From: a bacterium
GTDB taxonomy: Bacteria; Patescibacteriota; Minisyncoccia; Phycocordibacterales; JAUSHB01
Assembly (NCBI GenBank): GCA_030648955.1
Contig: JAUSHB010000012.1
Coordinates: 1 to 47,314 of the forward strand
DNA length: 47,314 nucleotides
Reading direction: 5' to 3'
In this document: positions 4,909 through 44,653 of the stretch, in pieces
Numbering within the stretch: position 1 is the stretch's first letter
Layout: the number at the start of each line of letters is the position of its first letter
Translations under genes and position numbers: made by a program
The notes under the pieces: model-generated
What the model saw: the letters and a program-made list of their open reading frames with translations, nothing else
Databases searched by the model: none
Told to the model about the DNA's origin: nothing

Positions 4909-4981
4909 GGGCGGTTAGCTCAGTTGGTAGAGCATTCGCTTGACGTGCGAAGGGTCGGAGGTTCGAGTCCTCCACCGCCCA
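4909..4981 (+). tRNA. tRNA-Val (GAC)
   Basis: 73 nt forming a full cloverleaf: GGGCGGT/ACCGCCC acceptor stem, D arm, anticodon loop TTGACGT with GAC at 4942-4944, and T arm GGTTCGAGTCC. The 3' CCA is not encoded (the sequence after the discriminator A is CAA). An intrinsic terminator follows immediately, then a tRNA-linked fold-back element. Confidence 0.96.
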
Positions 4982-4988
4982 CAAACAT

Positions 4989-5033: not shown

Positions 5034-5233
5034 GGTGGAGGACTCGAAAGACGGAGGCGGTATACAAGACGAGCGACATTGTTTTCTTATGAGCAAGGCG
5101 AGTTAGAAAACAAGAAGTACTCTTGTGGTGTGGAGCGAGTACTTGTCGCCGAGTCGGGGTCGAGAGTACTTTGCATTTTGCGACGAAAGGGAGCAAAATG
5201 CTTAGTAACTCGTGACCAAGCCCATCGCCCACA
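5034..5233. repeat. tRNA-linked fold-back element, tRNA-Val copy
   Basis: Reading away from tRNA-Val, an inverted copy of the T-arm 3' half is met first (GGTGGAGGACTCGAA, 15 nt, 5034-5048). The shared core follows in reverse sense (CGAGTCGGGGTCGAG, 5150-5164). At the far end is GTGACCAA (5212-5219) followed by a decayed direct copy of the tRNA end (CGCCCACA). Two internal hairpins differ from those of the other copies. This is the longest member (about 200 bp). No coding capacity is apparent. Confidence 0.75.
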
Positions 5234-29263: not shown

Positions 29264-29383
29264 TTGTACCGTGGGAGTAGGCTTGGTCACAAATTCGCTA
29301 CGCTCATAAGTGCCTCCTGCCCGGACTCGCCTGCCGTACTTGCTTCGCTTCGTACGACATGGCTCCGCCTTTCAAATCTCCAC
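29264..29383. repeat. tRNA-linked fold-back element, tRNA-Leu(CAG) distal copy
   Basis: The left end TGTACCGTGGGAG (a variant of the tRNA-Leu 3' end) runs into TTGGTCAC (29283-29290). The core variant GGACTCG follows, and the right end is GGCTCCGCCTTTCAAATCTCC, shown here as its two parts CTCCGCCTTTC and TTCAAATCTC (29371-29380), an inverted T-arm copy. It is a second, tandem element beyond 29436-29536. Confidence 0.72.
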
Positions 29384-29449
29384 GCAACGCAAGCAGTTGC
29401 GTTGCTCCCACAGCACTGCGTTTATTTCATTTACTTGTGCTGTGGGAGG
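29384..29449. repeat. Hairpins between the two tandem fold-back elements
   Basis: GCAACGCAA-GCAG-TTGCGTTGC (29384-29405) is a perfect hairpin. CTCCCACAGCAC (29405-29416) is complementary to GTGCTGTGGGAG (29438-29449), the direct tRNA-end copy of the neighbouring element. Thus the distal element treats the proximal element's tRNA-end copy as its own 'tRNA'. Confidence 0.6.
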
Positions 29450-29536
29450 AGACTTGGTCACAAATAATTTTCTGCTGAAAATTTTCGCGACCCCGCCTCG
29501 CGCCGCCGCGCTCCGGCCTTCAAATCTCTCCCGTGT
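29436..29536. repeat. tRNA-linked fold-back element, tRNA-Leu(CAG) proximal copy
   Basis: The distal end GTGCTGTGGGAG matches the tRNA 3' end (GTGCCGTGGGAG at 29585-29596, 11 of 12). TTGGTCAC follows (29454-29461), then an AT-rich hairpin, the core TCGCGACCCCGCCTCG (29485-29500), CTCCGGCCTTC, and an inverted T-arm copy TTCAAATCTCTCCC (29519-29532). About 100 bp. Confidence 0.8.
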
Positions 29537-29585
29537 CCACAAACAAACAGATTCGCCTCGCTTCACGAGGCTTATCTAATGTTTG

Positions 29586-29667
29586 TGCCGTGGGAGAGAT
29601 TTGAACTCTCAAGCCTTGCGGCATACGCTTCTGAAGCGTACGCGTATACCAGTTCCGCCACCACGGC
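29586..29667 (-). tRNA. tRNA-Leu (CAG)
   Basis: 82 nt class II tRNA with a long variable arm. The acceptor GCCGTGG/CCACGGC, anticodon loop TTCAGAA (CAG) and T arm AGTTCAAATCT are intact. CCA is not encoded (ACAAAC follows). A TATAAT box about 12 nt upstream (plus-strand 29679-29684) is the likely -10. Confidence 0.94.
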
Positions 29668-29714
29668 AGGATTTATGGATTATATCCTAAAATGAGAAAT
29701 ACAATAAAATTTTT

Positions 29715-29816
29715 GTGGGCTAGGGAGGACTTGAATCTTACAGATTCGGTACAGGTTTCGTATTTTTTCGGATTACTTAATCCTCAAAAATATACTCAAC
29801 CTTTTCAAGTCCTCTC
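29715..29816. repeat. tRNA-linked fold-back element, tRNA-Leu(UAG) copy
   Basis: A 21-nt perfect direct repeat of the tRNA 3' end, beginning GTGGGCTAGGGAGG (29715-29735 versus 29863-29883). Then comes AT-rich sequence with two short hairpins, and an inverted T-arm copy TTTTCAAGTCCTC (29803-29814). This copy lacks the TTGGTCAC and CGCGACC core, so it shares only the end architecture. Confidence 0.72.
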
Positions 29817-29860
29817 ACGCAAAACACGCAGGTGTCTTACTCCCTGACATCAATTCGTTC

Positions 29861-29945
29861 TGGTGGGCTAGGGAGGACTTGAACCTCCATGGGTTACCCC
29901 GTTGCGTCCTAAGCGCAGTGCGTCTACCAATTTCGCCACTAGCCC
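29861..29945 (-). tRNA. tRNA-Leu (TAG), CCA encoded
   Basis: 85 nt including an encoded CCA. Acceptor GGGCTAG/CTAGCCC, anticodon loop CTTAGGA (TAG), long variable arm and T arm GGTTCAAGTCC. One of two tRNAs here with genomic CCA. Confidence 0.94.
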
Positions 29946-29970
29946 AAATTACATCACTACACCATGCTAC

Positions 29971-30108
29971 TCGTCGTCACAAGTATTTTTCCTGACGGAA
30001 AAATCTCGCGACCCCGGCTCGCGGTTTTTGCCTTGAGCAAGCTCAAACAAAAACAGCGCTGCGCCTCGGACAAGCTAAAAATCTCCCGCAGGGAAAATTT
30101 TTTACGCT
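29971..30108. repeat. tRNA-linked fold-back element, degenerate distal copy near tRNA-Lys
   Basis: It carries GTCACAAG, a hairpin ATTTTTCCTGACGGAAAAAT (29985-30004), the core TCGCGACCCCGGCTCG (30005-30020) and a GC hairpin. The tRNA-derived ends are eroded. It abuts the tRNA-Lys element, so again two elements sit in tandem. Confidence 0.5.
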
Positions 30109-30233
30109 TGTCCGCCCGGCAGTCTTGGTCACGAGTTACTAATCCTTTTATTTCACTTCGTTCACAAAAGTCTAAGTACTCGCGACCCCGCCTCGTTGTC
30201 GCTGCGCGACATACTGCGGCTTTCAAATCCTGA
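30109..30233. repeat. tRNA-linked fold-back element, tRNA-Lys copy
   Basis: The direct copy GTCCGCCCGGCAG (30110-30122) equals the tRNA-Lys end at 30284-30296. TTGGTCAC (30125-30132), CGAGTTACT ... AAGTACTCG as an inverted pair, the core CGCGACCCCGCCTCG (30181-30195), a GTCGCTGCGCGAC hairpin, GCGGCTTTC and the inverted T-arm copy TTTCAAATCCTG (30221-30232) follow in order. This is the clearest member. Confidence 0.85.
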
Positions 30234-30284
30234 CGCAAGTAAAGAAGTTTACTTGCTCCGGGCGAACCACTCGTTTCACTCGGG

Positions 30285-30357
30285 TCCGCCCGGCAGGATT
30301 TGAACCTGCGACCATCTCCTTAAGAGGGAGTTGCTCTACCAACTGAGCTACGGGCGG
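30285..30357 (-). tRNA. tRNA-Lys (CTT)
   Basis: 73 nt. Acceptor CCGCCCG/CGGGCGG, D arm AGCTCAGTTGGTAGAGC, anticodon loop CTCTTAA (CTT) and T arm GGTTCAAATCC. CCA is not encoded (ACCCG). Confidence 0.95.
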
Positions 30358-30664
30358 ATATAAAAACGTACGGTGTTTTCTGGCTCCATATTGCAGATTT
30401 CGGTTTTTTGAATGAGTTGAGTATAAATCATTCCTTTGAATATTTCAATGAATGAAAATAAAAAATTTCGCGTACATCCCTGATTATTTTATAAAGGTCT
30501 TAATTGAGTACCAAGTTTTAGTTGTCCACAATGTACTTCATGTGACACTACGTGCTACGATATTAAAATGTATTTTATTAGCTGAGAGGATTAGAGATGA
30601 GCCTTTCTTGAGATTCGAAGTTTCTTTTAGTACCAACTTATTACGTGTTTAGCGAAAAAGTATT
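30358..30664. other. Intergenic region before the propeller protein
   Basis: 307 bp, AT-rich. It must hold the tRNA-Lys promoter (minus) and the promoter of the large surface protein (plus). A 66-codon frame at 30452-30652 is present but has no ribosome binding site or recognisable similarity. No repeat or RNA gene is recognised. Confidence 0.45.
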
Positions 30665-34822: not shown

Positions 34823-34952
34823 TGGTGCCGGGGGTGGGAATCCTTCTCATCCAAAATTTTCAAATCGTGAGACGATATATGAAAATTTTTCCTTCGAAGC
34901 CGGCCACTTTTGCTTCATCCTTCGGCGCAAAAGTTGGCTTCGATTCCCGTGG
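34823..34952. repeat. tRNA-linked fold-back element, tRNA-Leu(UAA) copy
   Basis: A 20-of-20 direct copy of the tRNA 3' end including its encoded CCA (TGGTGCCGGGGGTGGGAATC, 34823-34842 versus 35000-35019). Two internal hairpins follow (AAAATTTT...AAAATTTTT, and GCCACTTTTGC against GCGCAAAAGTTGGC), then the inverted T-arm copy TTCGATTCCC (34939-34948). The core motif is not conserved. Confidence 0.78.
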
Positions 34953-35172: not shown

Positions 35173-35275
35173 TTGAGGCCTGGGCGGATTGGTCACAAAT
35201 AAATTTTCTGATAAAAATTTTTCGCGACCTCGCCTCGCTGTCGCAGGGCGACATGCTCCGGCTTTCAATTCCCGA
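35173..35275. repeat. tRNA-linked fold-back element, tRNA-Cys copy
   Basis: The direct copy TTGAGGCCTGGGCGG (35173-35187) equals the tRNA-Cys end at 35336-35350 (15 of 15). TTGGTCAC (35189-35196), an AT-rich hairpin, the core CGCGACCTCGCCTCG (35223-35237), a GTCGCAGGGCGAC hairpin, CTCCGGCTTTC and the inverted T-arm copy TTTCAATTCCCG (35263-35274) follow in the same order as in the tRNA-Lys copy. Confidence 0.85.
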
Positions 35276-35338
35276 CACAAGACAAGCGGTTGCCTTGTTC
35301 CCACGCCTCCGGAACTCCCATTGCAGGGAGTTTCCTTG

Positions 35339-35410
35339 AGGCCTGGGCGGGAATTGAACCCGCGCATATCTCTTTTGCAGAGAGACGCCTTACCACTTGG
35401 CTACCAGGCC
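35339..35410 (-). tRNA. tRNA-Cys (GCA)
   Basis: 72 nt. Acceptor GGCCTGG/CCAGGCC, anticodon loop CTGCAAA (GCA), T arm GGTTCAATTCC and the discriminator U73 expected for Cys. CCA is not encoded. Confidence 0.95.
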
Positions 35411-44356: not shown

Positions 44357-44371
44357 CCCCCCCGTAATTAT

Positions 44372-44515
44372 TTTGTGCGCCGGGTAGGATTGGTCACGAG
44401 TTACTAAGTGTTCTCGATTGCTTTGCAATCTGCGAGCACTAAGTACTCGCGACCCCGACTCGCAGCCCCACACAAAGTGTGGGGACCCGCTGCTCCGTCT
44501 TTCGAATCCTACCCG
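44372..44515. repeat. tRNA-linked fold-back element, tRNA-Tyr copy
   Basis: The direct copy of the tRNA end is 19 of 20 (44372-44391 versus 44566-44585). TTGGTCAC (44390-44397), an imperfect 20-bp stem (CGAGTTACTAAGTG...GAGCACTAAGTACTCG), the core CGCGACCCCGACTCG (44448-44462), a CCCCACACAAAGTGTGGGG hairpin, CTCCGTCTTTC and the inverted T-arm copy TTCGAATCCTACCCG (44501-44515) follow. The two ends pair perfectly over 11 bp, and both carry the same change relative to the tRNA (GGTAGG/CCTACC in place of GGCAGG/CCTGCC). Confidence 0.88.
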
Positions 44516-44564: not shown

Positions 44565-44569
44565 TTTTG

Positions 44570-44653
44570 TGCGCCGGGCAGGATTCGAACCTGCGTAGGC
44601 ATAAAGCCGCTTGATTTACAGTCAAGTGCGATTGACCACTCCGCCACCGACGC
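44570..44653 (-). tRNA. tRNA-Tyr (GTA)
   Basis: 84 nt class II tRNA. Acceptor GCGTCGG/CCGGCGC with one G-U pair, anticodon loop CTGTAAA (GTA), long variable arm and T arm GGTTCGAATCC. CCA is not encoded (ACAAAA). Confidence 0.94.

Follow-up and report, generated by a model that had tools for sequence, protein, structure and literature searches.

Foldback elements with host-matching ends behind tRNA genes of CPR bacteria and Elusimicrobium

Introduction

Why should the 3' flank of a tRNA gene hold two copies of the end of that same gene, one inverted and one direct, around an interior that recurs behind other tRNA genes? The question is raised by a stretch of 47,314 nucleotides (hereafter the window), i.e., contig C12 of the genome G000 (973 kb, 21 contigs, 100% complete, 47 tRNA matches). 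A first-pass annotation made from the letters alone had described such elements behind seven of the eight tRNA genes of the window, and had proposed either copying or site-specific insertion templated by the tRNA gene, or a structured 3' trailer RNA. A covariance model, R1, was built from nine copies.

Results

Elements of the window

All eight tRNA genes of the window were confirmed by the tRNA search. The covariance model recognizes seven core-bearing elements located 3' of five tRNAs (Val, Leu-CAG twice, Lys twice, Cys and Tyr); thus the full plan announced for seven of the eight tRNAs holds for five. At Leu-UAG and Leu-UAA only the host-matching arms and the direct copy are present, the interior being different and devoid of the conserved core. 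No element was seen behind tRNA-Trp when the 3' flanks in the window were read. The direct copy of the tRNA 3' end at the far side, as first described, was found again in these flanks. The features are the following:

4909-4982, + strand: host tRNA-Val(gac), tRNA search
5034-5232, + strand: element at tRNA-Val(gac); inverted arm 5034-5048, direct copy of the tRNA 3' end 5218-5232
5036-5227, + strand: two-hairpin core of the tRNA-Val(gac) element, match of the covariance model
29585-29667, - strand: host tRNA-Leu(cag), tRNA search
29437-29533, - strand: element 1 at tRNA-Leu(cag); inverted arm 29519-29533, core, direct copy 29437-29455; 69.9 bits
29266-29415, - strand: element 2 (tandem) at tRNA-Leu(cag); diverged core, direct copy 29266-29284; 30.1 bits
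29371-29415, - strand: inverted parts of element 2 at tRNA-Leu(cag); acceptor 29405-29415, hairpin with CTGC loop 29385-29404, T-arm 29371-29381
29715-29816, - strand: core-less element at tRNA-Leu(tag); inverted arm 29804-29816, direct copy 29715-29736; no model match
30282-30358, - strand: host tRNA-Lys(ctt), tRNA search
30110-30268, - strand: element 1 at tRNA-Lys(ctt); core, direct copy 30110-30126; 92.6 bits
30222-30268, - strand: inverted parts of element 1 at tRNA-Lys(ctt); acceptor 30258-30268, hairpin 30235-30256, T-arm 30222-30232
29965-30078, - strand: element 2 at tRNA-Lys(ctt); arms decayed or lost; 37.3 bits
34823-34948, - strand: core-less element at tRNA-Leu(taa); inverted arm 34939-34948, direct copy 34823-34842 ending exactly with CCA
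35338-35410, - strand: host tRNA-Cys(gca), tRNA search
35174-35310, - strand: element at tRNA-Cys; core, direct copy 35174-35190; 89.7 bits
35264-35310, - strand: inverted parts of the tRNA-Cys element; acceptor 35300-35310, hairpin 35277-35298, T-arm 35264-35274
44569-44653, - strand: host tRNA-Tyr(gta), tRNA search
44368-44515, - strand: element at tRNA-Tyr; inverted arm 44501-44515, core; 77.9 bits
44368-44391, - strand: direct copy of the tRNA-Tyr element, extending beyond the tRNA end

The interior had been said to be conserved in six copies. The motif CGAGNCGRGGTCGNGA does occur six times without mismatch in the window, 0.21 occurrences being expected from dinucleotide shuffles at up to 2 mismatches, and the covariance model brings the copies to seven. 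The tRNA-Tyr element is atypical in that its two arms have one base in common against the tRNA. Elsewhere in G000, the genes for Leu-CAA (L050), Gln-CTG (L044) and Ser-UGA (L038) are followed by an inverted arm and a direct copy that stops at the 3' end of the tRNA, with another interior. Together with those of Leu-UAG and Leu-UAA, these inserts probably represent further core families that share the same machinery.

Plan and fold

On the tRNA strand the order of the parts is as follows: tRNA, usually its own terminator, inverted acceptor 3' strand, inverted T-stem/T-loop half, hairpin 1, hairpin 2 and direct copy. The elements measure about 100-200 bp and, in agreement with the first reading, contain no reading frame. 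The inverted copy of the 3' half of the T-arm is indeed present near the tRNA, but its extent had been underestimated: the acceptor 3' strand is copied as well, and a small hairpin with a CTGC loop often separates it from the T-stem/T-loop part. Of 81 elements, 35 contain CTGCTT or its complement in the 50 nt that precede the core; no right flank contains it. Hairpin 1 follows the pattern G.CGGAG ... CGAG.C and hairpin 2 the pattern GGTCGCGAG ... CTCGTGACC. The consensus of the right end is GTGACC, then comes host sequence.

Among 124 aligned copies, 28 of 29 pairs show two-sided changes. Paired cells reach 90% vs. 68% after shuffling (0 of 500 shuffles as high), and the signal is lost on sliding the partners; the part of this signal that lies in helix 1 (the arms) is due to both arms copying the same tRNA, and the inner helices constitute the independent evidence. 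In these inner helices G-U is counted 235 times and A-C 11 times, thus the folding strand is the tRNA-sense strand; this bias fixes the strand, and RNA and single-stranded DNA fit it alike. The inner helices also contain a conserved bulged A (119/121) and a conserved G.U (114/121). Relative to the tRNA, changes number 33 in the left arm against 25 in the right one, with only 3 shared. The two arms diverge independently, hence arm-arm pairing is not separately maintained. When the elements were submitted to Rfam, only tRNA was returned at the gathering score and nothing significant at a relaxed threshold.

Some elements have hairpin 2 in common and a different hairpin 1 (e.g., G026:C7 368823 and 380569), which suggests recombination among elements. 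One subtype, whose foldback arm is constant (CTCAATTGC..GCAATTGAG), is dispersed away from tRNAs at G026:C7 173009, 279408, 310875 and 628099, and is nested once in another element, at G026:C7 150543.

Correspondence with the host gene

For the 81 elements with a tRNA, the mean rank of the element's own tRNA is 4.0 of 81 by the inverted arm and 9.6 by the direct copy, chance being 40 in both cases. In 40 of these 81 elements, 12 nt or more of the tRNA end (up to 89 nt) recur exactly as a direct repeat (0.5 expected). Several repeats measure exactly 21 nt, from the T-loop through CCA, while others continue through the terminator. The idea that the inverted arm tracks the tRNA and the direct copy does not was dropped, the effect being an artefact of the different end points of the arms. 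A protein gene offers an example: for topA of G026 the right copy runs into the apparent original gene end (LEEKKGGKKIG*) and the left copy has a new end (LAK*). The derivation of the ends from the host, as initially proposed, is thus supported by arm ranking, repeats and arm comparison. It is not true of every copy, since many old ones are decayed, with ends no longer matching the host, and one in G026 (Leu-GAG, see below) has a foreign arm.

Genomic and taxonomic range

G000 contains 23 R1 matches, and about 22 of its 47 tRNAs have an element. Within the same order, 25 of 31 genomes are positive, with 1 to 47 matches each. In the wider survey, GTDB genomes were first scanned for the exact motif and then searched with R1; the range found is a lower bound. 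Among the matches listed are many Paceibacteria, Saccharibacteria and Berkelbacteria, one WS2 genome and Elusimicrobium, so the family is not confined to CPR bacteria. In Elusimicrobium, sampled as one genus, copies are present in 34 of 41 genomes (0 to 9 each).

Copies nearly always lie shortly 3' of a tRNA or tmRNA, with identical orientation and junctions at nearly every site. On the 680 kb main contig of G026, 33 of 43 copies follow a same-strand tRNA or tmRNA at a distance of no more than 500 nt, for 0.6 expected by random placement. Confinement to tRNA flanks does not hold either: besides tmRNA, hosts include rplL and topA in G026 and rpsI in three other genomes, with arms matching the respective gene ends. 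Such copies off tRNAs mostly match the gene that they follow. A search for carriers in IMG/VR, INPHARED and PLSDB gave chance or tRNA matches only, with one exception. In L175, a contig of the viral catalogue, two elements lie at the edge, beside tRNA-Ser-like end copies; it is probably a prophage boundary in an Elusimicrobium-like host.

Mobility and change of target

The elements are mobile, as seen from (i) empty sites, (ii) patchiness within a genus, (iii) tandem and nested copies and (iv) different genes followed by nearly the same core. In Elusimicrobium, the Gln-Pro tRNA locus is empty in G044 (L348) and filled in G032 (L347), which bears out the early suggestion of site-specific insertion. 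In L347 the insert has the displaced terminator and Pro promoter of the empty site on its right, and another copy of the gene end with a terminator on its left. Insertion keeps the gene intact; the gene 3' end is repeated in direct orientation beyond the element, the inverted copy and the two conserved hairpins lying inside. In several right copies 4-14 unrelated nt, opposite the CTGC hairpin, separate the T-stem and acceptor parts; this is probably a junction. Serial copies at Leu-CAA and a copy nested in another at His, both in G026, demonstrate repeated insertion.

In 45 pairs of elements with cores at least 85% identical, the similarity of the arms is 0.62 and 0.58 vs. 0.58 and 0.52 for random pairs. 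Arms no more alike than chance around near-identical cores mean that the arms are rewritten from the new host gene. Core identity is 97% for L118 and L121, 95% for Leu-CAG of the window and L078 of another genome, and also 95% for Val-UAC of G000 and the tmRNA copy in L115. The core thus moves among genes and genomes, and the arms then fit the new host gene.

The Leu genes of G026 are instructive in this respect. Leu-UAG and Leu-GAG have trailer, terminator, arm and core nearly identical base by base; the Leu-GAG copy is recent, with the Leu-UAG arm still in place. At Leu-UAA the core is shared as well (98%), as is half of the terminator, and the arm matches Leu-UAA over 17 nt. Since one arm is rewritten and the other is old, arm rewriting is separable from insertion. 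Gene conversion is an alternative origin for the Leu-GAG flank, but the ends of the tract would have to coincide exactly with the element boundaries.

Discussion

Comparison with known systems

Integrative elements with tyrosine recombinases (ICEs, prophages) use the 3' ends of the same class of genes, i.e., tRNA, rplL and rpsI, with repeats of 12-54 bp in ICEs (PMC4701971). As in these, the direct repeats of the gene 3' end (here 12-89 nt) often end at the gene end, and the original end is displaced to the far side. However, the present element has neither integrase nor cargo, measures about 150 bp and contains an inverted copy of the gene end; moreover, a single core family uses dozens of different target sequences.

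In integron attC sites, foldback arms form a double-stranded site on one strand, with an unpaired spacer between the boxes, an extrahelical base and a variable top (PMC2727003). attC and the folded attP of CTX phage thus resemble the present element by the foldback site on one strand, the spacer, the extrahelical base, the variable hairpin top and the serial arrays. In silico, the likeness extends to a single folding strand (covariation), a conserved bulged A and a variable terminal structure. On the contrary, no GTTRRRY / RYYYAAC box was found in the element consensus by inspection, no integron integrase was seen, there is no cassette gene, the arms are copied from the host gene, and it is the gene-sense strand that folds.

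Bacterial MITEs, REP/BIME and Rickettsia palindromic elements are also short, gene-less, palindromic, multi-copy and patchy, but have fixed ends without any match to a host gene. Constant terminal inverted repeats of the MITE type are not found here, near-identical cores having random-like arms, and the viral, phage and plasmid sets searched contained no autonomous carrier. Group IIC introns insert behind terminators and at attC-like hairpins; the present element differs by having no intron core, no reverse transcriptase and no Rfam match. To our knowledge, no described element carries inverted and direct copies of the end of whichever gene is its host, and the open-licence papers searched contained no tRNA-adjacent foldback element of CPR or Elusimicrobia. 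As each known kind fails on a tested feature (integrase, constant terminal repeats, attC boxes, RAYT, reverse transcriptase, Rfam), the family is best regarded as a new kind. A known enzyme class may nevertheless be its driver, in which case it would fairly be seen as a tRNA-targeted integrative element.

Candidate enzymes

Reverse transcriptases were looked for as PF00078 and tyrosine recombinases as PF00589, a test which recombinases of other families could escape. No recombinase is linked to any copy. Xer is mostly single per genome, present in nearly all genomes and without linkage to the copies; being near-universal, its presence proves nothing. PF00589 was not detected in G018, which has elements, and G002, which has the most integrases (5) of the genomes examined, has no elements. 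Cargo-bearing islands were ruled out in G026: no gene-end copies are found there farther off than about 300 bp, hence no large island is hidden. REP/RAYT mobilisation was rejected, RAYT (Y1 transposase) being missing from G010, G012 and G031-G034, all of which bear elements. PF00078 was absent from G026 (100% complete, 41 copies), G010, G011, G014, G015 and the tested Elusimicrobium genomes; a reverse transcriptase as driver was rejected because most element-rich genomes have none and the only one of G000 resembles that of a diversity-generating retroelement. This gene, at L056 (G000:C13 22897-26511), has adenine-variable repeats nearby.

Mechanism and rival explanations

The reading that we favour, tentatively and with somewhat less than even confidence, is that of gene-less non-autonomous mobile elements inserting at gene 3' ends, mainly of tRNA and tmRNA, through recombination of a folded strand, the arm being rewritten later. 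The gene-sense strand would fold and the gene end would pair with the inverted arm, rebuilding a double-stranded copy of the target site. The folded single strand would recombine with a gene end by the action of a tyrosine recombinase provided in trans, perhaps the Xer of the host. A fresh copy would initially retain its old arm, rewritten later from the adjacent gene end by inverted-repeat template switching, a process that rewrites inverted repeats and creates inverted copies (PMC8794818); copying would always run from gene to arm, the gene being fixed by selection. We infer the single-stranded intermediate, the recombinase and the template switching; recombination of a folded strand is suggested by the target spectrum and the repeats, which are like those of tyrosine integrases, and by the plan, which is like that of attC. 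Against this mechanism stand targets too diverse for one sequence-specific recombinase (topA vs. tRNAs), the 4-14 unrelated nt of some right copies, unexpected under precise recombination, the recombinase distribution described above (no copy-linked gene, G018, G002), the independent divergence of left and right arms, and the fact that no excised form was seen. That the element has no fixed ends, its arm being rewritten for each host so that base pairing, instead of protein-DNA specificity, allows one core to settle behind nearly all tRNAs and some protein genes, is a possibility in which our confidence is lower still.

The apparent want of a dedicated enzyme would be expected if hairpin-rich DNA were simply spread by template switching and by homologous or illegitimate recombination at the conserved T-loop, with natural transformation between cells. 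Template switching does create inverted copies (PMC8794818), and the unrelated nucleotides at right junctions fit as well; nevertheless, such a replication accident seems rather unlikely given a core sequence and fold strongly conserved over several phyla, uniform orientation and junctions, and insertion almost exclusively at gene 3' ends. Alternatively, an RNA that starts at a processed tRNA 3' end (trailer, terminator, inverted arm and core) could be copied by a reverse transcriptase at a nick in a second tRNA gene; the repeat of 20-60 bp would come from the stagger of the nicks, and the inverted copy from self-priming on the hairpin of the terminator. This would explain why repeats often span exactly T-loop to CCA, i.e., the mature tRNA end, why the tRNA-sense strand folds with G.U tolerated or even fixed, and why terminators sit at the foldback turn. 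We consider it unlikely in view of the absence of PF00078 from the genomes named above, and of the Leu-UAA copy of G026, whose rewritten arm beside a foreign half-terminator indicates that arm and remainder did not arise together at insertion.

A covarying fold on the tRNA-sense strand and a nearly constant location 3' of tRNAs would also suit a structured RNA useful to the host, i.e., a cis-acting trailer aiding tRNA maturation or preventing misfolding. We hold this to be improbable: half of the tRNAs of G000, whole genomes of one genus and the empty sites do without it, copies also follow rpsI, rplL and topA, nested and serial copies exist, and in L347, among other copies, the core comes after the tRNA's own terminator, which makes the trailer RNA first envisaged less likely in spite of the conserved fold. 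Decay of tandem duplicates of tRNA 3' halves would account for the direct copies of tRNA ends; in view of the inverted copies and of a conserved non-tRNA core that is also found behind protein genes, the inserts are not decayed tRNA duplicates, and the probability of this explanation is close to nil.

If the folded-strand reading is true, a family of mobile DNA, widespread in CPR bacteria and Elusimicrobium, changes its target by copying its landing site. This would bear on (i) the change of target in site-specific elements, (ii) the origin of integron-like folded sites and (iii) the architecture of tRNA loci in minimal genomes; if the target is recognized by base pairing, the insertion system would be programmable. 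Regardless of the mechanism, a large unannotated class of repeats is present at tRNA genes. Several element-bearing tRNAs have no encoded CCA. The sole Xer-type recombinase gene of G000 (L053, G000:C13 105860-109378) adjoins a gene whose product resembles a CCA-adding enzyme.
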